NCBI RefSeq assembly: GCF_030316895.1
Contig: NZ_JASZYV010000001.1
Coordinates: 124,001-188,000 of the forward strand
DNA length: 64,000 nucleotides
Reading direction: 5' to 3'
Source of the DNA: Variovorax dokdonensis
GTDB lineage: Bacteria > Pseudomonadota > Gammaproteobacteria > Burkholderiales > Burkholderiaceae_C
The notes beneath the pieces were generated by a model. That model had not been told where the DNA came from, did not search any database, and was given only the letters and a program-made list of their open reading frames with translations. Within the stretch, counting starts at the first letter, position 1; each line of letters starts with the position of its first letter. Positions 2,763-20,035 of the stretch are shown here, piece by piece. Made by a program: the position numbers and the translations under genes.

Positions 2763-3116
2763 GTGGAATTGGATAGAGAAGTCGCCGAAATTGACACCCA
2801 AATTACTCGGGAAATTGGGGACATCAATCTTGCATATATGTTGCTCGCGCAGAAACTCGTAAAGCAGGACCGCGCCGAAGCCATGTTCCGTCTTGGCATC
2901 AGCCGCGAACTGGCCGACCTCCTGGCCAACATGTCCCTGTCGCAGATCATGAAATTGGCCGCGTCGACATTCCTGCTTTGCAGCTTCCGCCTGCACGACC
3001 ATCCGGTCTTTTCAGCCATGGGCGACGAAAAGGAATCGCTGATGCAACAGGCGCACATGTCGATATTGATGGCGGCACGCCGCATCAATTCCGAAAAAGT
3101 CGGTGAAGCGGCATGA
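2763..3116 (+). CDS. flhD: Flagellar master regulator subunit FlhD
   Basis: A 117-residue protein with the FlhD pattern: DINLAYMLLAQKLVKQDRAEAMFRLGIS followed by LADLLANMSLSQIMKLA, where the dimer and FlhC contacts lie. FlhD joins FlhC in a D4C2 complex that activates class 2 flagellar promoters with sigma-70. The start is GTG at 2763, preceded by GGAG at 2752-2755 with 7 bp spacing. The coding sequence is less GC-rich than the rest of the locus. The stop overlaps the flhC start by ATGA (3113-3116), so the two subunits are translationally coupled. Confidence 0.95.
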   Translation: MELDREVAEIDTQITREIGDINLAYMLLAQKLVKQDRAEAMFRLGISRELADLLANMSLSQIMKLAASTFLLCSFRLHDHPVFSAMGDEKESLMQQAHMSILMAARRINSEKVGEAA

Positions 3117-3667
3117 CCAAGAAAAGCGTCCTCGGCGAGGTCAAAAGCATTCAATTGGCCATTGAGCTGATTGACTTGGGCGCTCGCCTCCAATTTCTCG
3201 AATCCGAAGTCGGATTGAGCCGGGAACGGCTTATTTCGCTTTACAAGGAATTGAAGGGCGTTTCGCCACCAAAAGGCCTTTTGCCTTTTTCCACCGATTG
3301 GTACATCACCTGGCGGGCGAATATCCATTCGTCCATGTTCTACAACATCTATCAATTCATGCGCGAGCAGGCGGACGAGCATCCGTTGCAGGCGCTGATC
3401 AAGAGCTATCGGCTCTACCGCGAGCAGGTGCTGGCGACGGACAGCGAGGTGGTGCTCGACTTCACCCGCGCCCACACGATGGTCCGCTTCTTCGACAGCG
3501 ACATGCTCCAGCTGAGCCCTTGCTGCCGCTGCGGCGGGCACTTCGTGGCGCATGCGCACGACAACAAGCGCGGCTACGTCTGCGTGCTGTGCAAGCCGCC
3601 TTCACGGGCCGGAAAAGTACGAACCGCCCGCGCGAGCGAGCCGGAACCGGAGCCGGTCGCGGCCTAG
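3113..3667 (+). CDS. flhC: Flagellar master regulator subunit FlhC
   Basis: A 184-residue protein matching FlhC. It has the helical N-terminal half, the WYITWRANIHSSMFYNIY segment, and a zinc-binding cluster near the C-terminus made of CCRCGGHF and CVLCKPP. FlhC supplies most DNA contact in the FlhD4C2 activator of class 2 flagellar genes. Translation starts inside the flhD stop (ATGA). Base composition changes within the gene: the first 200 bp or so are AT-richer, like flhD and its promoter, and the last third returns to the high GC of the chromosome. The next gene, motA, begins 44 bp downstream. Confidence 0.96.
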   Translation: MTKKSVLGEVKSIQLAIELIDLGARLQFLESEVGLSRERLISLYKELKGVSPPKGLLPFSTDWYITWRANIHSSMFYNIYQFMREQADEHPLQALIKSYRLYREQVLATDSEVVLDFTRAHTMVRFFDSDMLQLSPCCRCGGHFVAHAHDNKRGYVCVLCKPPSRAGKVRTARASEPEPEPVAA

Positions 3668-12763: not shown

Positions 12764-13909
12764 ATGGCTGAGGAAAGCGATCTCGAAAAAACCGAACCAG
12801 CATCCGAAAGGCGCCTGGAGAAGGCGCGTGAGGAAGGCAACGTTGCCCGCTCGCGGGAGCTGAGCACGCTGGTGATGCTGGGCACGGCCATCGGCGGCCT
12901 GTGGTTCATGGCCGGCTCCGTTGGCGGCACGCTGGAGCGGGCCATGCGCAAGGGCCTGGCCTTCGAGCGCAACAGCGCGCTCGATCCGATGCAGATGATC
13001 GCGCAGGTTGGCGCCAGCATCATGCAGGTGCTGATCGCGGTGGCGCCGCTCTTCTTCGCCATGGCCGCCGCGGCCTTGGTGGCTCCGATGCTGCTGGGTG
13101 GCTGGCTGTTCTCGGGCCAGGCCATCGCGCCCAAGTTCAACAAGCTCAATCCGCTGTCGGGCATTGCCCGCATGTTTTCCTCGCAGTCACTGGCGGAATT
13201 GCTCAAGGCCCTGGCCAAGTCGCTGCTGATCGGCGGCGTGGCGTGGTGGGTCATCTCGCGAAACATCGAGGAGATGATGCAGCTCATGGCGCTCGCGCCC
13301 AGTGCGGCGCTGCCGCAGGCGGTGATGCTGGTGGCGCGCGACTGCGCACTCATCGCCGCCGCGCTGGTGCTCGTGGCCGCCATCGACGCACCGTGGCAAC
13401 TCTGGAGCTACCACCGCAAGCTGCGCATGTCGCGCGAAGACCTGCGCCAGGAGCACAAGGAAAGCGAAGGCGATCCGCAGATCAAGGCGCAGATCCGCCG
13501 CCAGCAGCAGGCCATCGCGCGGCGCCGGATGATGTCCGAGGTGCCCAAGGCGGACATCGTCGTCACCAACCCGACCCACTTCGCCGTGGCGCTGAAGTAC
13601 GAGGATGGCGCCATGCGCGCGCCGCGCGTCGTGGCCAAGGGCACCGACCTGATCGCCCAGCGCATCCGCGAGATCGCCGCCGAGAACAAGGTGCCGACGC
13701 TCGAGGCGCCACCGCTCACGCGGGCGCTGTACAAGCACACGCGCCTCGGCGACGAGATTCCTGCCGGCCTGTACACGGCCGTGGCCGAAGTGCTGGCCTG
13801 GGTCTATCAGCTCAAGCGCTGGCATGAGGAAGGCGGCCAGTCGCCGCGCACGCCGACGGCGCTGCCCGTGCCCGACGAGCTGGCCTACAACCCGGCGGAG
13901 GCTGCATGA
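12764..13909 (+). CDS. flhB: Flagellar export apparatus switch protein FlhB
   Basis: A 381-residue inner membrane protein of the flagellar type III export gate. The start motif SDLEKTEPASERRLEKAREEG is typical; four hydrophobic segments follow between about residues 30 and 210. The cytoplasmic domain has the autocleavage site NPTH at residues 269-272, and after it KYEDGAMRAPRVVAKG and PAGLYTAVAEVLAWVYQL. Cleavage between N and P underlies the change from hook to filament export. I chose ATG 12764, which has GGAG at 12754-12757; a GTG at 12746 would add six residues. It overlaps flhA by ATGA. Confidence 0.97.
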   Translation: MAEESDLEKTEPASERRLEKAREEGNVARSRELSTLVMLGTAIGGLWFMAGSVGGTLERAMRKGLAFERNSALDPMQMIAQVGASIMQVLIAVAPLFFAMAAAALVAPMLLGGWLFSGQAIAPKFNKLNPLSGIARMFSSQSLAELLKALAKSLLIGGVAWWVISRNIEEMMQLMALAPSAALPQAVMLVARDCALIAAALVLVAAIDAPWQLWSYHRKLRMSREDLRQEHKESEGDPQIKAQIRRQQQAIARRRMMSEVPKADIVVTNPTHFAVALKYEDGAMRAPRVVAKGTDLIAQRIREIAAENKVPTLEAPPLTRALYKHTRLGDEIPAGLYTAVAEVLAWVYQLKRWHEEGGQSPRTPTALPVPDELAYNPAEAA

Positions 13910-16005
13910 GCGCGATGGCCAACCTGATTCGCCTGCCGCAGCAGTTCATGGGCGGCAAGCAGTTCAAGGGCCTGGCCGGCCCGGTGCTCATCATCCTGAT
14001 TCTGAGCATGATGGTGCTGCCGTTGCCGGCCTTCCTGCTGGATCTGCTGTTCACCTTCAACATCGCGATGTCGGTCATGGTGCTGCTGGTGGCCATGTAC
14101 ACGATGAAGGCGCTGGACTTTGCGGCCTTTCCGGCGGTGTTGCTCTTTTCAACGCTGCTGCGCCTGTCGCTCAACGTGGCATCGACCCGCGTGGTGCTGA
14201 TGCACGGCCACACCGGTCCGGACGCGGCCGGCAAGGTGATCGAGGCCTTCGGCCACTTCCTCGTGGGCGGCAACTTTGCCGTCGGCGTGATGGTGTTCAT
14301 CATCCTCGTGATCATCAACTTCATGGTGATCACCAAGGGTGCGGGCCGCATCGCCGAGGTGGGGGCGCGCTTCATGCTCGACGCCATGCCCGGCAAGCAG
14401 ATGGCCATCGACGCGGACCTCAACGCCGGCCTGATCGGCGAGGATGTGGCCCGCAAGCGCCGCACCGAGGTGGCTCAAGAGGCTGACTTCTACGGCTCGA
14501 TGGATGGCGCCAGCAAGTTCGTGCGCGGCGACGCGATCGCCGGCATCCTGATCCTGTTCATCAACATCATCGGCGGCCTGGTGGTGGGCATGCTGCAGCA
14601 CGGGCTGGACTTTTCCGCTGCCGGCAAGACCTACACGCTGCTGGCCATCGGCGACGGCCTGGTGGCGCAGATCCCGGCGCTGGTGATCTCCACCGCGGCC
14701 GGCGTGATCGTCTCGCGCGTGACAACCGACGAGGATGTGGGCCGGCAGCTCACCGGGCAGCTTTTCTCCAATCCGCAGGTGCTGTTCCTTACGGCCGGCA
14801 TCATCGGCCTGATGGGCCTGATCCCGGGCATGCCGAACCTGGCGTTCCTGCTCATTGCCGGCGGCCTGGGCTACTACGGCTATCGGCTGGCGCAGCGCAA
14901 GCCGCAGCAGCAGCGCGCGGCCGAAGCGGCGGCCGCGGCGCAGGCCACGGCGGCGCCGTCGGTGGATGCCGCCGAGGCCACCTGGGACGACGTCGCGCTC
15001 ATCGATCCGCTGGCCATGGAAGTGGGCTATCGCCTGATCCCGCTGGTCGATCAGTCGCAGCAGGGCGAGCTGCTGGGCCGCATCAAGAGCATCCGCAAGC
15101 GCATCGCGCAGGAGATCGGCTTTCTGGTGCCGGTCGTGCACATCCGCGACAACCTGGAGCGCGGGCCCAACACCTACGTGATCAGCCTCAAGGGCGTGGA
15201 GATCGGCCGGGGCGAAGCCTTCCCGAACATGTGGATGGCCATCAACCCCGGACAGGTCACCGGCACAGTGCCCGGCACGCCCACGCAGGACCCGGCCTTC
15301 GGCCTGCCTGCCGTGTGGATCGAGTCGAACCTGCGCCAGCAGGCGCAGATCCAGGGCTACACCGTGGTCGATGCCTGCACCGTGATGGCCACGCACCTGA
15401 ATCACCTGATCCAGACGCATGCCGCCGAACTGCTCGGCCGCCAGGAAGTGCAGCAACTGCTCGACCAGATCGCCAAGACGGCGCCCAAGCTCACCGAGGA
15501 GCTGGTGCCCAAGGTGCTGTCGCTCAGCACGCTGCACAAGGTGCTGCAGAACCTGCTCGAAGAAGAAGTCTCGATCCGCGACATGCGCACCATCCTCGAC
15601 GTGATGGCCGAGCACGCGCCGACGGTGAAGGACGCGACCGAGCTTACTTCGCTCACCCGCCTGGCGCTCAGCCGAGCCATCGTGCAGCAGCTGTTCCCTG
15701 GCGATTCCGAGCTGCAGGTGATGGGCCTGGATGCCTCACTCGACCGCGTGCTGCAGCAGGCGCTGACCAGCAACAGCGGCATCGAGCCGGGGCTGGCCGA
15801 CAACCTTCTTCGCGAAGCGCAGGCTGCCGTCGAGCGGCAGGAGCAACTGGGCATCGCACCGGTGCTGGTCGTTCAGCACGGGCTGCGCGTGCTGCTTGCC
15901 CGATTCCTGCGCCGGAGCATTCCGCGGCTCAAGGTGCTCTCGCACGCCGAGATCCCTGATTCGCGCCACATCAAGATCACCGCCACCCTTGGAGGACGAG
16001 TTTGA
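13906..16005 (+). CDS. flhA: Flagellar export gate protein FlhA
   Basis: A 699-residue protein of normal FlhA length. The N-terminal half holds about eight transmembrane segments with the conserved cytoplasmic FHIPEP-type loop between them (ARFMLDAMPGKQMAIDADLNAG and RKRRTEVAQEADFYGSMDGA). The C-terminal half, from about residue 360, is the cytoplasmic nonameric ring that docks chaperone-substrate complexes. FlhA uses the proton gradient for export. The start at ATG 13906 overlaps the flhB stop; ATG 13915 is an in-frame alternative. The end overlaps the flhF start by TTGA. Confidence 0.97.
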   Translation: MSAMANLIRLPQQFMGGKQFKGLAGPVLIILILSMMVLPLPAFLLDLLFTFNIAMSVMVLLVAMYTMKALDFAAFPAVLLFSTLLRLSLNVASTRVVLMHGHTGPDAAGKVIEAFGHFLVGGNFAVGVMVFIILVIINFMVITKGAGRIAEVGARFMLDAMPGKQMAIDADLNAGLIGEDVARKRRTEVAQEADFYGSMDGASKFVRGDAIAGILILFINIIGGLVVGMLQHGLDFSAAGKTYTLLAIGDGLVAQIPALVISTAAGVIVSRVTTDEDVGRQLTGQLFSNPQVLFLTAGIIGLMGLIPGMPNLAFLLIAGGLGYYGYRLAQRKPQQQRAAEAAAAAQATAAPSVDAAEATWDDVALIDPLAMEVGYRLIPLVDQSQQGELLGRIKSIRKRIAQEIGFLVPVVHIRDNLERGPNTYVISLKGVEIGRGEAFPNMWMAINPGQVTGTVPGTPTQDPAFGLPAVWIESNLRQQAQIQGYTVVDACTVMATHLNHLIQTHAAELLGRQEVQQLLDQIAKTAPKLTEELVPKVLSLSTLHKVLQNLLEEEVSIRDMRTILDVMAEHAPTVKDATELTSLTRLALSRAIVQQLFPGDSELQVMGLDASLDRVLQQALTSNSGIEPGLADNLLREAQAAVERQEQLGIAPVLVVQHGLRVLLARFLRRSIPRLKVLSHAEIPDSRHIKITATLGGRV

Positions 16006-18512
16006 ACATGACGAACACTGACGTGCGGGCATCGGCCCGTCGATTCTTCGCGGCGACCAGCCGCGAAGCCCTTCGCCTGGTGCGCGAGGCGCTGGGCGAC
16101 GAGGCCATCGTGTTGAGCAACCGTGCGAGCGCGCAAGGCGTGGAGATCGTCGCGATGGTCGAGGGCGAGGTTGCGCAGGCCGTGGCGGTTGCCGAGCGCG
16201 CCGCGGAGCCGGCCGCGTCTGTCGCCCCGATCGCACCAGCGGCGAGTGCGCCGGTTGCGCCGGCCATGCAAGCCGCGCCGCAAGCCGCACCGGCTGCGCC
16301 CATCGCGCTTCAGCCCGCCGCGCGGCCTGCGGCGCCCGTCGCCGAGTCGCCAAGCGCTGCCGTGCCGGCCGTCGCCCCGACTGCGTCGTCCGACGCCGTG
16401 CTGAACGAGCTTCACTCCATGCGCGGCATGCTCGAAGAGCAACTGGCCGGCGCGCTGTGGAACGACCAGCAGCGGCAGGACCCTGCCCGTGGCCGCCTGC
16501 TGCGCACCTTGCTCGGCGCAGGCTTCAGCGCGCGGCTGTCGCGCGCCATGCTCGAAAAGCTGCCCACCGGACAGACTTATGCGCAAGGCCTGGCCTTTGC
16601 GCGCTCCGAACTGATCCGCGCCATGCCGGTCATGCAGGACGAAGAAGCCCTGATGCGCCAGGGCGGCGTCTATGCGCTGATGGGGCCGACCGGCGTCGGC
16701 AAGACCACCACCACCGCCAAGCTTGCGGCTCGCTGCGTGATGCGTTTCGGCGCCGACAAGCTCGCGCTGGTGACGACCGACAGCTTCCGGATCGGCGCCT
16801 ACGAGCAGCTGCGCATCTATGGCCAGATCCTGGGCGTGCCCGTCTACGCCGTGAAAGATGCGGCCGACCTGCATCTGGTTTTGCAGGACCTGCAGGGCAA
16901 GCACATGGTGCTCATCGATACCGTGGGCATGAGCCAGCGCGACCGTGCCCTGTCGGAGCAGATCGCCATGCTGTGCAACGCCCGTCGGCCGGTCAAGCGC
17001 ATGTTGCTGCTCAATGCCACCAGCCACGGCGACACCCTCAACGAGGTGGTGCACGCGTACCGCCAGGGCAGCGATCTCGCGGGCTGCATCTTCACCAAGG
17101 TGGACGAATCGACGCACCCCGGTGCCCTGATCGACACGGCCATCCGCCACCGCCTGCCGGTGCACTACGTGTCCAGCGGCCAGAAGGTGCCCGAGAACCT
17201 CATGGTGGCCGACCCCGCGCAACTGGTGGATAGCGTGTTCCAGCCGCGCCGCCACCAACCGCTGTTCGTGCCGCCCGAGACCGAGATGCGCGAGGCGCCC
17301 GAAGGCACCGGCCCGAGCGCCGGCGAACTGCAGGCGCAGGCCGAGGCGGACCGGCTTCGCCATCAGTACCAGAACCTGATCCGCGCGATGGCGCACGACG
17401 CGCAGGAGCTGGCCGGCACGGCGGCATCGCTGAGCGGCGCGGGCATCGGATTCGACACCGCGCGTCGTTTGTGGCGCCGCGCCGGCGACGAGCACATCAC
17501 GCAGCAGGCACTGCTGCAGGTGCTGGCCGCGCAGGCTCAGAGCGAGATCGCGTCGGGTTGCAGCCGGCATGTGCTGGCGGTGTACGGCCGCGTCAGCCTT
17601 CGCACCAGCGAGGGCGGCGATGCGTATGCCTGCCACAGCAGCCTGCTGCTGTCCGACCGCAGTGGCCTGGCGATCGCCGCGCCGAATCAATGGCTGTCCA
17701 CCGCCGGCACGCGCGGCAGCATGGACAAGCGCCGCCGCGCCGAGGCGCGCCAGGTGCAGTGGCTGGATGCGCAGGCCAACGGCAAGCCGGTGGTTCATCT
17801 GCTGGGCCGCCTGCCCTCGCTGGAGGCGCTGCAGGAGTGGCAGGCCCAGGGGCTGCGCTGGCTGGCGCGCGCTTCGGCCGTCACCGGCGTGATCGACGCG
17901 CAAGGCGGCCAGTCGTACGCGCTGGCGCGCCTGCCGTTCGACTACGGCGACGCGGTCGCCATCACCCATCGCGGCAAGCCGGCCGTGCGCCGCGAGGCCC
18001 ACCTGCAGGTGCTGCTGCGCGCAGGTCCAGAGGCCGCCGAACTCAAGCCGCTGCGCTGCGTGGCCGTGCGCGTCATGGACGCGCGCACTCACAAGATCCT
18101 CGCGCAGCACTACCTGCTTTCGAACTTGGAGCACGAGGTCGATGCGGCGCAACTGGCGCAATGGCACGGATGGGCCACCGACGCCGAAGCCTGCCTGCGC
18201 CTGATGCGCCAGGGCGTGCAACTCGCCGGCGGCCTGGGCGAGCCCGGCGATCCCGCCATGGTCAAACGCCTGCTGGTCGCGGGCCAGGTGGGCACGACCG
18301 TCTGGCGCCTGATGCATGCGCAGGGCGAGTGGGCGGCGCGCGCGCGCACTCTGCTCGGCCAACTCACCGGACGCACCTTGCGCGGCGGCCAGGCGCCCAG
18401 CGGCAATCAGCTGTACCTGGGCGTGACCAAGCTGTTCCTGCTGCTTGATGCCCTGGGCACCGAATCGACCGCGCCGACCCGGCAGTTGGTGGCCGTCGCG
18501 AACGAGGCGTGA
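16002..18512 (+). CDS. flhF: Flagellar SRP-type GTPase FlhF with a long C-terminal extension
   Basis: An 836-residue protein. The N-terminal basic part (DVRASARRFFAATSREALRLV) leads to an Ala/Pro linker, then the NG GTPase core with P-loop GPTGVGKTTTTAK (about residues 228-240), TTDSFRIGAYEQLR, and the DTVGMSQRD and TKVDEST motifs. The GTPase ends near residue 412. About 410 further residues follow that match no domain I recognise, so the protein is far longer than the 400-500 residues usual for FlhF. FlhF places new flagella at the pole. TTG 16002 has GGAGG at 6 bp spacing and overlaps the flhA stop; ATG 16008 is the alternative. Confidence 0.88.
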   Translation: MNMTNTDVRASARRFFAATSREALRLVREALGDEAIVLSNRASAQGVEIVAMVEGEVAQAVAVAERAAEPAASVAPIAPAASAPVAPAMQAAPQAAPAAPIALQPAARPAAPVAESPSAAVPAVAPTASSDAVLNELHSMRGMLEEQLAGALWNDQQRQDPARGRLLRTLLGAGFSARLSRAMLEKLPTGQTYAQGLAFARSELIRAMPVMQDEEALMRQGGVYALMGPTGVGKTTTTAKLAARCVMRFGADKLALVTTDSFRIGAYEQLRIYGQILGVPVYAVKDAADLHLVLQDLQGKHMVLIDTVGMSQRDRALSEQIAMLCNARRPVKRMLLLNATSHGDTLNEVVHAYRQGSDLAGCIFTKVDESTHPGALIDTAIRHRLPVHYVSSGQKVPENLMVADPAQLVDSVFQPRRHQPLFVPPETEMREAPEGTGPSAGELQAQAEADRLRHQYQNLIRAMAHDAQELAGTAASLSGAGIGFDTARRLWRRAGDEHITQQALLQVLAAQAQSEIASGCSRHVLAVYGRVSLRTSEGGDAYACHSSLLLSDRSGLAIAAPNQWLSTAGTRGSMDKRRRAEARQVQWLDAQANGKPVVHLLGRLPSLEALQEWQAQGLRWLARASAVTGVIDAQGGQSYALARLPFDYGDAVAITHRGKPAVRREAHLQVLLRAGPEAAELKPLRCVAVRVMDARTHKILAQHYLLSNLEHEVDAAQLAQWHGWATDAEACLRLMRQGVQLAGGLGEPGDPAMVKRLLVAGQVGTTVWRLMHAQGEWAARARTLLGQLTGRTLRGGQAPSGNQLYLGVTKLFLLLDALGTESTAPTRQLVAVANEA

Positions 18513-18528: not shown

Positions 18529-19260
18529 ATGAGCAAACGGGTTGTCGATCAAGCCGAAGGTCTGCGCCGTCTTCTGGCGCCGCCATCGACGCACGTGGTG
18601 GCCGTGGCCGGCATGAGCCGTGGCGAGGGCACCACGACGGTGGCGATGGGCCTGGCCGCTGCGCTGGCCGTGCAGGGTAGGGAGGTGCTGGTGCTCGATG
18701 AACATGCGCCACGCGCCGGCTCCGCCGCTGTTCTTGCGCGCGGCGATGGCGCCGTCGACGTGAAGCCAGCCAAAGGCGAATTGCTCTCGCACGACTTCGA
18801 TCCGCGCAGCTGGAGTCCCGGCGGCGTGGTGGTGATCGACGCCGCACTCGATGACGAGGGCCGCCTGTCGGCCACCGCCGAAGCGGCCGACGATCTTTTG
18901 CTGGTGCTGCAGCCGCGCGCTGCATCCATCACCGCCGCCTATGCCGGCGTCAAGCGGCTGCATTACGCGCACGGGCTGCAACAGGCGCGCTTCCTGGTCA
19001 ACGCCGCGCCCGATGAGCGGGGCGCGTTGCAGATCATGGCCAACCTGTCGGCCGCCGGCAGCCGCTATCTGGCGGTTTCGCTTTCGCCGGCCGGCTGGCT
19101 GCATGCGGACCCGCGCCTCGAGGATGCGCGCCGCCTGGGCCGAACCGTGGTCGAGGCCTTCCCGGCCAGCCCGGCCGCGCTGGACCTGCGGCGCGTGGCA
19201 TCCGCACTGCTGCACTGGCCCCGTCAGTCGCCGGCCCCTCGGGCCGTGGCTGCCGCCTGA
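18529..19260 (+). CDS. FlhG/MinD-like protein with degenerate P-loop
   Basis: A 243-residue protein in the flhG (fleN) position between flhF and fliA. It keeps the MinD/ParA fold signs: an N-terminal strand VVAVAGM leading into a P-loop region and VAMGLAAALA helix, VLVLDEH as the A-prime strand, VVVIDAALD as Walker B, and LLVLQPRAASITAAYAGVKRL. The P-loop reads GMSRGEGTTT at 28-37: Ser30 and Thr35 stand where the two conserved lysines of GKGGVGKT should be. FlhG normally limits flagellar number through ATP-driven membrane cycling and FlhF stimulation. Here ATP hydrolysis seems unlikely. The start ATG 18529 follows a GAGGAAAGG ribosome site. Confidence 0.82.
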   Translation: MSKRVVDQAEGLRRLLAPPSTHVVAVAGMSRGEGTTTVAMGLAAALAVQGREVLVLDEHAPRAGSAAVLARGDGAVDVKPAKGELLSHDFDPRSWSPGGVVVIDAALDDEGRLSATAEAADDLLLVLQPRAASITAAYAGVKRLHYAHGLQQARFLVNAAPDERGALQIMANLSAAGSRYLAVSLSPAGWLHADPRLEDARRLGRTVVEAFPASPAALDLRRVASALLHWPRQSPAPRAVAAA

Positions 19261-19303: not shown

Positions 19304-20035
19304 GTGTACACCGCACAGGGAACCATCGAGAAATCGCATCTGCTGGAGCAGCACTATCCATTGGTGCGCCGAATTGCATTGCAGATGCTCGCCAAGCTGC
19401 CGGCCAGCGTGGAGCTGGACGATCTGATCCAGGTCGGCATGATCGGCCTGCTGGATGCATCCACCCGCTACCAGGACAACAAGGGCGCCCAGTTCGAGAC
19501 CTTCGCCAGCCAGCGCATCCGCGGCGCGATGCTCGACGAGCTGCGGGCCAGCGACTGGGGCTCGCGCGGCTTGCGGCAATCGGGCCGTGGCGTGGAGAAA
19601 GCCATCCAGGCGCTGGAGCATCGACTGGGCCGCGCGCCCAGCGAAGGCGAGATCGCCCGCGAACTGAAGATGGATCTGGACGACTACCAGTCGCTGCTGC
19701 AAGAGATCCAGGGCTGCCAGTTGCTGTACGTCGAGGACTTCGCGCAGGGCGATTCCGAGAATCCCTTCATCGACCAGCATGCCCGGGCCGCGCGCGGCGA
19801 TCGTCTGGTCGACGATCCGCTCGCACAGCTGATGGAAAGCGGCTTTCGGGAGCAGCTGGTTCAGGCCATCTCCGAGCTTCCGGAGCGCGACCAGCTCCTG
19901 CTGAACCTCTACTACGACGAGGAACTGAACCTGCGCGAGATCGGCGCCATTCTGGAAGTGAGCCAGAGCCGCGTTTGCCAGCTGCACAGCCAGGCCATCA
20001 GCCGCTTGCGGGCGAAGCTGGCCGATCTGCTCTGA
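19304..20035 (+). CDS. fliA: RNA polymerase sigma factor FliA (sigma-28)
   Basis: A 243-residue sigma-70 family protein with FliA architecture. Region 2 (HYPLVRRIALQMLAKLPASV, DLIQVGMIGLLDASTRY, FETFASQRIRGAMLDELR) is followed by region 3 (RAPSEGEIARELKM) and region 4 with the helix-turn-helix LREIGAILEVSQSRVCQLHSQ. It directs transcription of flagellin, chemotaxis and other late genes. The GTG at 19304 gives MYTAQGTIEKSHLLEQHYPLV, fitting family starts; the ribosome site is weak. It closes the motility locus and converges on the ArsR-type gene with a 4 bp gap. Confidence 0.96.
   Translation: MYTAQGTIEKSHLLEQHYPLVRRIALQMLAKLPASVELDDLIQVGMIGLLDASTRYQDNKGAQFETFASQRIRGAMLDELRASDWGSRGLRQSGRGVEKAIQALEHRLGRAPSEGEIARELKMDLDDYQSLLQEIQGCQLLYVEDFAQGDSENPFIDQHARAARGDRLVDDPLAQLMESGFREQLVQAISELPERDQLLLNLYYDEELNLREIGAILEVSQSRVCQLHSQAISRLRAKLADLL

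Follow-up and report, generated by a model that had tools for sequence, protein, structure and literature searches.

An FlhG orthologue without its ATP site: apparent retirement of the ATPase across sampled Burkholderiales, with the FlhF-contacting helix retained

What remains of FlhG when its ATP site is gone? The question is raised by a locus of Variovorax dokdonensis, contained in a stretch of 64,000 nucleotides that was analysed as a whole (the window), in which the gene behind flhF encodes a protein that an initial annotation described as FlhG-like and devoid of both P-loop lysines. In excerpts of a 2025 review (PMC12826062), FlhG is presented as a conserved ATPase that controls flagellar number, and virtually nothing is said to be known about its role in bacteria that do not use FleQ.

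The gene order in the window is flhA-flhF-flhG-fliA, all on the plus strand (Table 1). As the annotation had noted, the gene keeps the flhG position, directly after flhF and before fliA, and it encodes an FlhG homologue; its ATG lies 16 nt past the flhF stop and is preceded by a AGGAAAGG-like ribosome site. The closest solved structures by sequence to the 243-aa product (VVAVAGMSRGEGTTTVAMGLA) are FleN/FlhG proteins, with a phmmer E of 8.6e-19 to P. aeruginosa FleN (5j1j). Family models say less: the Pfam CbiA score of 21.7 bits is below the cut-off of 25.4, all matches to the NCBIfam ATPase models (MinD, ParA, BcsQ) lie far under their cut-offs, and PADLOC gave no match. The AlphaFold2 model (pLDDT 92.0) has the MinD/FlhG fold and matches FleN 5j1j best (Z 26.4, rmsd 2.4, 212 aligned), with the FlhG structure 4rz3 at Z 24.8. 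The top six structure rows (Z 23.9-26.4) are all FleN or FlhG, as are those within 1 of the best Z, which count as tied. The N-terminal helix is modelled at residues 8-16, outside the span of the structure matches. We consider it rather probable that the protein is by ancestry a genuine FlhG with a retired ATPase module.

Table 1. Features of the flhG locus and of flhC in the window
Feature	Position	Strand	Basis or remark
flhC, flagellar master regulator subunit	3113..3628 (extent of family match)	+	E 1.3e-81
flhA, 5' neighbour	13906..16005	+	TIGR01398, 909.7 bits vs cut-off 772.1
flhF, long form, 836 aa from TTG start	16002..18512	+	GTPase motifs GPTGVGKT, DTVG, TKVDE
FlhF C-terminal extension, about 414 aa	17262..18509		no sequence match in Pfam or PDB
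flhG, 243 aa, FlhG orthologue without ATP site	18529..19260	+	ORF, phmmer, fold
N-terminal activating helix region, residues 6-19 (VDQAEGLRRLLAPP)	18544..18585	+	alignment, HMM; putative role from excerpts of PMC12826062
Degenerate P-loop, residues 27-37 (AGMSRGEGTTT)	18607..18639	+	S30 and T35 replace both lysines
Switch I, D57-E58-H59	18697..18705	+	catalytic Asp of DAD is His59
Walker B-like strand VVVIDAALDD, residues 100-109	18826..18855	+	Asp104 retained
fliA (sigma 28), 3' neighbour	19304..20035	+	NF005413, 298.1 bits vs cut-off 201

The loss of both P-loop lysines is borne out by the alignments. In an ungapped phmmer alignment to 5j1j, S30 falls in the column of the signature lysine of the FleN loop GGKGGVGKT and T35 in that of its catalytic lysine, and a MAFFT alignment gives the same register. 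The switch-I Asp of FleN (DADLGLAN) is likewise replaced, by His59 (DEH), so that the signature lysine of xGKGGxGK(S/T), the catalytic lysine and the switch-I Asp, together termed the ATP triad below, are all missing. Lysines placed elsewhere in the loop, which the annotation had named as grounds for giving up its claim, do not replace the two lost ones in the sequence alignment, and the invariant Lys142, which is found in intact FlhGs too, was dismissed as a compensating residue. The Walker B-like VVVIDAALD was rightly reported as retained, with Asp104. The window protein thus resembles FlhG/FleN (YlxH; 5j1j, 4rz3) in its position after flhF, its MinD-like fold, its DQAxxLR helix and its Walker B Asp, but differs in lacking the two lysines, the switch-I Asp and a C-terminal membrane helix. 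Fold and distant sequence similarity also connect it to the MinD/ParA deviant Walker A ATPases; without the motif that defines that group, it is not a member by motif. As read from these residues, the window FlhG probably has no ATP cycle.

Trivial explanations were considered and rejected. A pseudogene or a sequencing error is at odds with the 22 of 22 Variovorax genes that are open, with a whole-gene w of 0.42. Sequencing error or chance is furthermore ruled out by relatives: among the best 80 of 427 named relatives (Variovorax, Polaromonas, Collimonas, Burkholderia, Paraburkholderia, Caballeronia and others), all 79 readable P-loops lack GK(S/T) (76 by script, three by eye), the 80th being a fragment. 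A second, intact FlhG elsewhere in the genome was sought with a canonical FlhG query, which gave seven matches: two are fragments of the window gene, three correspond to MinD and ApbC (above NCBIfam cut-offs) and a ParA-like protein (below cut-off), and the last two come from open frames that are 775 and 945 residues long.

The annotation had also asked whether the lysine loss is clade-wide. The FlhF model TIGR03499 scored above its cut-off in 221 of 299 family, 109 of 160 order-draw and 74 of 149 class-draw genomes, the order and class draws containing a few genomes from inside f1, the family in question, which we take to be Comamonadaceae-like. Among the 182 loci examined (152 from the order, 30 from the rest of the class), 176 have an FlhG-type neighbour. 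The complete triad is present in 30 of 30 loci of the other class orders and in all three foreign-looking f1 loci (genera g26, g33 and g50), and in none of the 143 remaining, native-looking flhF-linked order loci, P-loop states that rest on MAFFT alignments and counts that vary with the criterion. The loss is therefore not specific to this genome; it is common to the native-looking FlhGs sampled across the order. Specifically, 119 of the 143 have no triad residue at all, 20 still have a G-K catalytic lysine (among them L163, with both lysines and no Asp), one has the signature lysine only, and three have the Asp alone at the switch-I column. The first 30 class loci had been taken from the top of the FlhF scores, so 40 lower-scoring ones were added. 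Of these 70, 69 yielded an ORF that has the Asp and an intact P-loop (L375 gave none), a figure that states how often such a P-loop was found, as the pattern itself requires the lysines.

The C-terminal membrane helix was surveyed as well. Scored with our own pattern, a membrane-helix-like ending occurs in all 30 class proteins, in 23 of the 58 other order proteins and in two of the 85 native f1 proteins; the pattern misses the three intact f1 proteins, which end in EFFMAQWL or similar. The window protein ends in LLHWPRQSPAPRAVAAA, with no amphipathic membrane-targeting helix. Decay in the order is hence graded, as the 20 G-K lysines among 143 and the 23 endings among 58 indicate. As far as sampled, the order appears to have retired the FlhG ATPase and retained the helix that contacts FlhF. 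The loss of the ATP site is itself well demonstrated; the function of FlhG is what we infer. A literature search covering openly licensed papers, with most subscription journals outside its scope, found no earlier report of FlhG ATP-site loss.

Some loci depart from the common arrangement. In four f1 genera (L125, L126, L130, L143) a fliA-like ORF directly follows flhF with no flhG between them, and two f4 genomes (L231, L236) have a long FlhF with no FlhG-like ORF behind it. Eleven f1 loci (L027-L033, L035-L038) carry a MinD-like paralogue in which an SGKGGVGKTF-type loop is intact and the DQAxxLR helix is missing.

What could have made an ATP site dispensable? In monotrichous bacteria FlhG holds back the regulator FleQ/FlrA, and in the order of the window FlhDC frequently serves as master regulator. 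FlhC and FleQ were tested in 80 genomes (72 from the order, eight from the rest of the class), and 43 of them, 35 in the order, exceeded the Pfam FleQ cut-off. All eight class genomes match the FleQ model (33-84 bits), and the match stands in seven (34-84 bits; two of the seven rechecked), that of G465 being a FixJ-like response regulator. In the order, 40 of 72 genomes have a match at E 0.001 or better, the best reaching 31.6 bits. Seven order proteins, among the best-scoring, were rechecked and rejected as FleQ, since they score 97-110 bits as response-regulator receivers versus 24-30 bits as FleQ and so are response regulators of the ordinary kind. The window's own genome has no FleQ match. 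From these comparisons FleQ seems to be absent from the order. Seven f1 genomes and G465 possess an intact FlhG without a convincing FleQ, which argues against FleQ loss as a simple cause. FlhC is strong in 45 of the 72 order genomes. Within f1, FlhC is present in every one of the 24 tested genomes whose FlhG is degenerate and missing from all seven whose FlhG is intact; in the remaining order families FlhC is strong in 21 of 40, weak in two and absent from 17, and many of these 17 also lack the catalytic lysine. Replacement of FleQ by FlhC was accordingly rejected as the sole cause, because outside f1 FlhC does not track the loss of the catalytic lysine. In one genome of the window's genus (G215) FlhC was missing and the FlhF model matched only weakly (E 7.6e-17).

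The history of the neighbouring flhF adds to this picture. An FlhF extension of about 400 residues is common to the measured Variovorax, Polaromonas and Collimonas loci, to g206 and g223 of f4 and to g230 of f31 (extension-bearing loci L249-L275, L277, L279, L282, L286 and L293). The NG domain of the window FlhF shares 88% identity with its counterpart in Variovorax sp. YR216, and in FlhF trees, which are quick ones with many open forks, the window FlhF groups with other Variovorax (97, starred) and then with Collimonas and Polaromonas (99, starred), apart from most f1 genera. This grouping and the shared extension make horizontal acquisition possible; with one gene as its basis, the window's flagellar cluster may have arrived in this way. 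The three loci with an intact FlhG in g50, g33 and g26 (L129, L134, L135) have a divergent FlhF on a long branch, which lies beside, not within, the starred set of the other 99 order rows, and seven tested genomes of these genera lack FlhC; the genera look like owners of a foreign flagellar system, long branches being hard to place. In an excerpt of PMC4905959, deletion of flhF in B. cenocepacia left 80% of the cells without flagella. A B. cenocepacia genome of another strain (L326) encodes a lysine-less FlhG, and these two observations indicate that the FlhF encoded beside a lysine-less FlhG is probably functional.

If the ATP site has been lost, the N-terminal helix has not. Excerpts of PMC12826062 are the source for the helix motif and its role in activating FlhF. 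The window protein carries it as DQAEGLR (residues 7-13), including Gln8, through which the GTPase of FlhF is putatively stimulated. This Gln is kept in 175 of 176 FlhG proteins (all 171 that HMM alignment resolved and four of the remaining five, read by eye), with L070 as the sole exception. Only D7, Q8, A9, R13 and K142 are invariant in 74 selected FlhGs, intact and degenerate, and in 60 f1 FlhGs without a P-loop only the helix Gln and one Leu are; both sets were selected with a pattern containing the Gln, so the survey count is the fairer figure. A large f1 subgroup has HQ(A/G)xxL instead of DQAxxLR. With a strict text pattern the helix is picked up in 129 of the 143 native order proteins; several of the 14 misses show it in other outputs, so that some of the misses at least come from the range searched. 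Applied to the 69 class proteins with an intact P-loop, the pattern detects the helix in 45. The 24 misses among these 69 ATP-site-intact FlhGs of other class orders (L336-L374) include a few that keep a partial motif. On these counts, the ATP site is fixed and the helix varies outside the order, and the reverse holds inside it.

Among 22 Variovorax flhG genes, w is 0.42 for the whole gene, 0.41 for the P-loop, 0.13 for the helix and 0.99 for the short C-terminal tail, from sequence pairs that are not independent; the helix value is biased low, as most loci were fetched or cut with the helix pattern, which leaves the P-loop contrast unaffected. The gene is under purifying selection. In 46 Burkholderia sensu lato genes the P-loop evolves faster (0.35) than the rest (0.26), whereas seven intact f1 copies have a P-loop at 0.056 versus 0.21 for the gene; eight genes of families with an SGRxGVGKT-type loop give 0.19 versus 0.22, at high dS. 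Whole-gene w reaches 0.42 in Variovorax but 0.21 in the intact f1 copies, a sign that relaxed constraint also contributes. This roughly twofold difference would suit a view of FlhG as a jobless relic, slowly eroding on its way out of the order, as would the P-loop that has become unrecognisable in most f1 genera sampled, the four f1 genera that run from flhF into fliA without flhG and the two f4 loci that also lack it. The 22 open genes with w well below 1 speak against such a relic, and so do the persistence of the helix Gln and the confident folds of proteins even without a P-loop: L086, one such relative, is modelled at pLDDT 90.5 and again matches FleN 5j1j best (Z 17.7, rmsd 3.3, 212 residues). 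One residue spared over so many lineages is not the mark of neutral decay, and we regard erosion on the way to loss as unlikely.

A different possibility is that the non-canonical loop still binds ATP and switches on binding alone. The window P-loop is less eroded than most in its own family, the loop of its clade mostly keeping the glycines and TT/TS (GxxxxGxTT), and, according to excerpts of PMC7226244, a V. alginolyticus D60A variant that binds ATP without hydrolysing it is only slightly affected. Set against this, both lysines and the switch-I Asp are gone, the loop sequence varies among the 22 Variovorax proteins at the rate of the gene as a whole, most f1 genera sampled have no recognisable loop, and the window protein lacks the membrane helix, which is under the control of ATP binding. 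A loop that switches on binding is thus very improbable, and of the two alternatives offered by the annotation, binding without hydrolysis becomes the less likely one.

The explanation that we favour, and hold to be somewhat better than an even bet, is that FlhG has become an ATP-independent protein reduced to activating the FlhF GTPase, perhaps after the loss of FleQ. With its ATP site missing and its helix retained, and in light of the parts of PMC12826062 and PMC7226244 considered, no ATP cycle and activation of FlhF are what would be expected. In this model, the window FlhG would be a soluble, nucleotide-independent monomer whose helix Gln is inserted into the FlhF GTP dimer and brings about GTP hydrolysis; active FlhF would then be limited by the dose of FlhG rather than by an ATP-gated membrane cycle. 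More speculatively, the ATP site may have become dispensable once FleQ/FlrA was lost from the order. The four f1 genera that keep flhF with no flhG behind it count against this explanation, as they imply that FlhG can be dispensable. The annotation's proposal of a fixed adaptor for FlhF fits insofar as it foresaw an ATP-independent role at FlhF; the surviving helix would point to something more specific, activation of the FlhF GTPase. The annotation's further suggestion, that polar number control could work differently here, is conjectural: the usual pattern in Variovorax is sparse peritrichous flagella.

The conserved parts of FlhG might instead serve a nucleotide-independent scaffold that delivers or holds the C-ring proteins FliM/FliN at nascent basal bodies, FlhF activation being secondary. 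Excerpts of PMC7226244 report that Geobacillus and Shewanella FlhG bind FliM/FliY without nucleotide. Lys142, invariant in the 74 intact and degenerate FlhGs, lies outside the ATP site and would agree with such a task. The most conserved residue, however, is the Gln that contacts FlhF, which to our knowledge is not a C-ring surface, and a scaffold as the main function appears improbable.

Seen as FlhF activator, the window FlhG has a laboratory counterpart and a functional one. Like the Walker A mutant FlhG K31A of V. alginolyticus, it has no Walker A lysine; unlike that mutant, which loses its function and is hyperflagellated according to excerpts of PMC7226244, it is natural and its condition is common to many genera. 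According to the same excerpts, V. alginolyticus FlhG with Walker A mutations is impaired in its ATPase, its polar localisation and its negative activity. By analogy, it may act as SRP RNA does on Ffh-FtsY, as a proposed non-switching activator of an SRP-type GTPase, but it is a protein, its target would be the FlhF homodimer and its role is deduced. FlhG has already been termed a protein-based SRP RNA analogue in the excerpted review (PMC12826062). A wider and more tentative proposal, which we place somewhat below even probability, is that the FlhF-FlhG system was rewired throughout the order: FleQ would be gone, the ATP clock and membrane cycle lost and FlhG turned into a constitutive activator of the FlhF GTPase, a pure protein analogue of SRP RNA, with no FlhG ATPase taking part in setting flagellar number; in the rest of the class it is the helix that varies and the ATPase that stays fixed. 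On that proposal the two halves of FlhG would be separable.

Taken together, a large and well-studied order seems to dispense with the FlhG ATPase while keeping the helix that contacts FlhF. This natural separation of functions would make two questions directly testable, namely the purpose of the ATPase and the task of FlhG where FleQ is not in use. It also calls for caution in annotating such genes as ATPases and in carrying Vibrio and Pseudomonas models over to Burkholderia-like bacteria.
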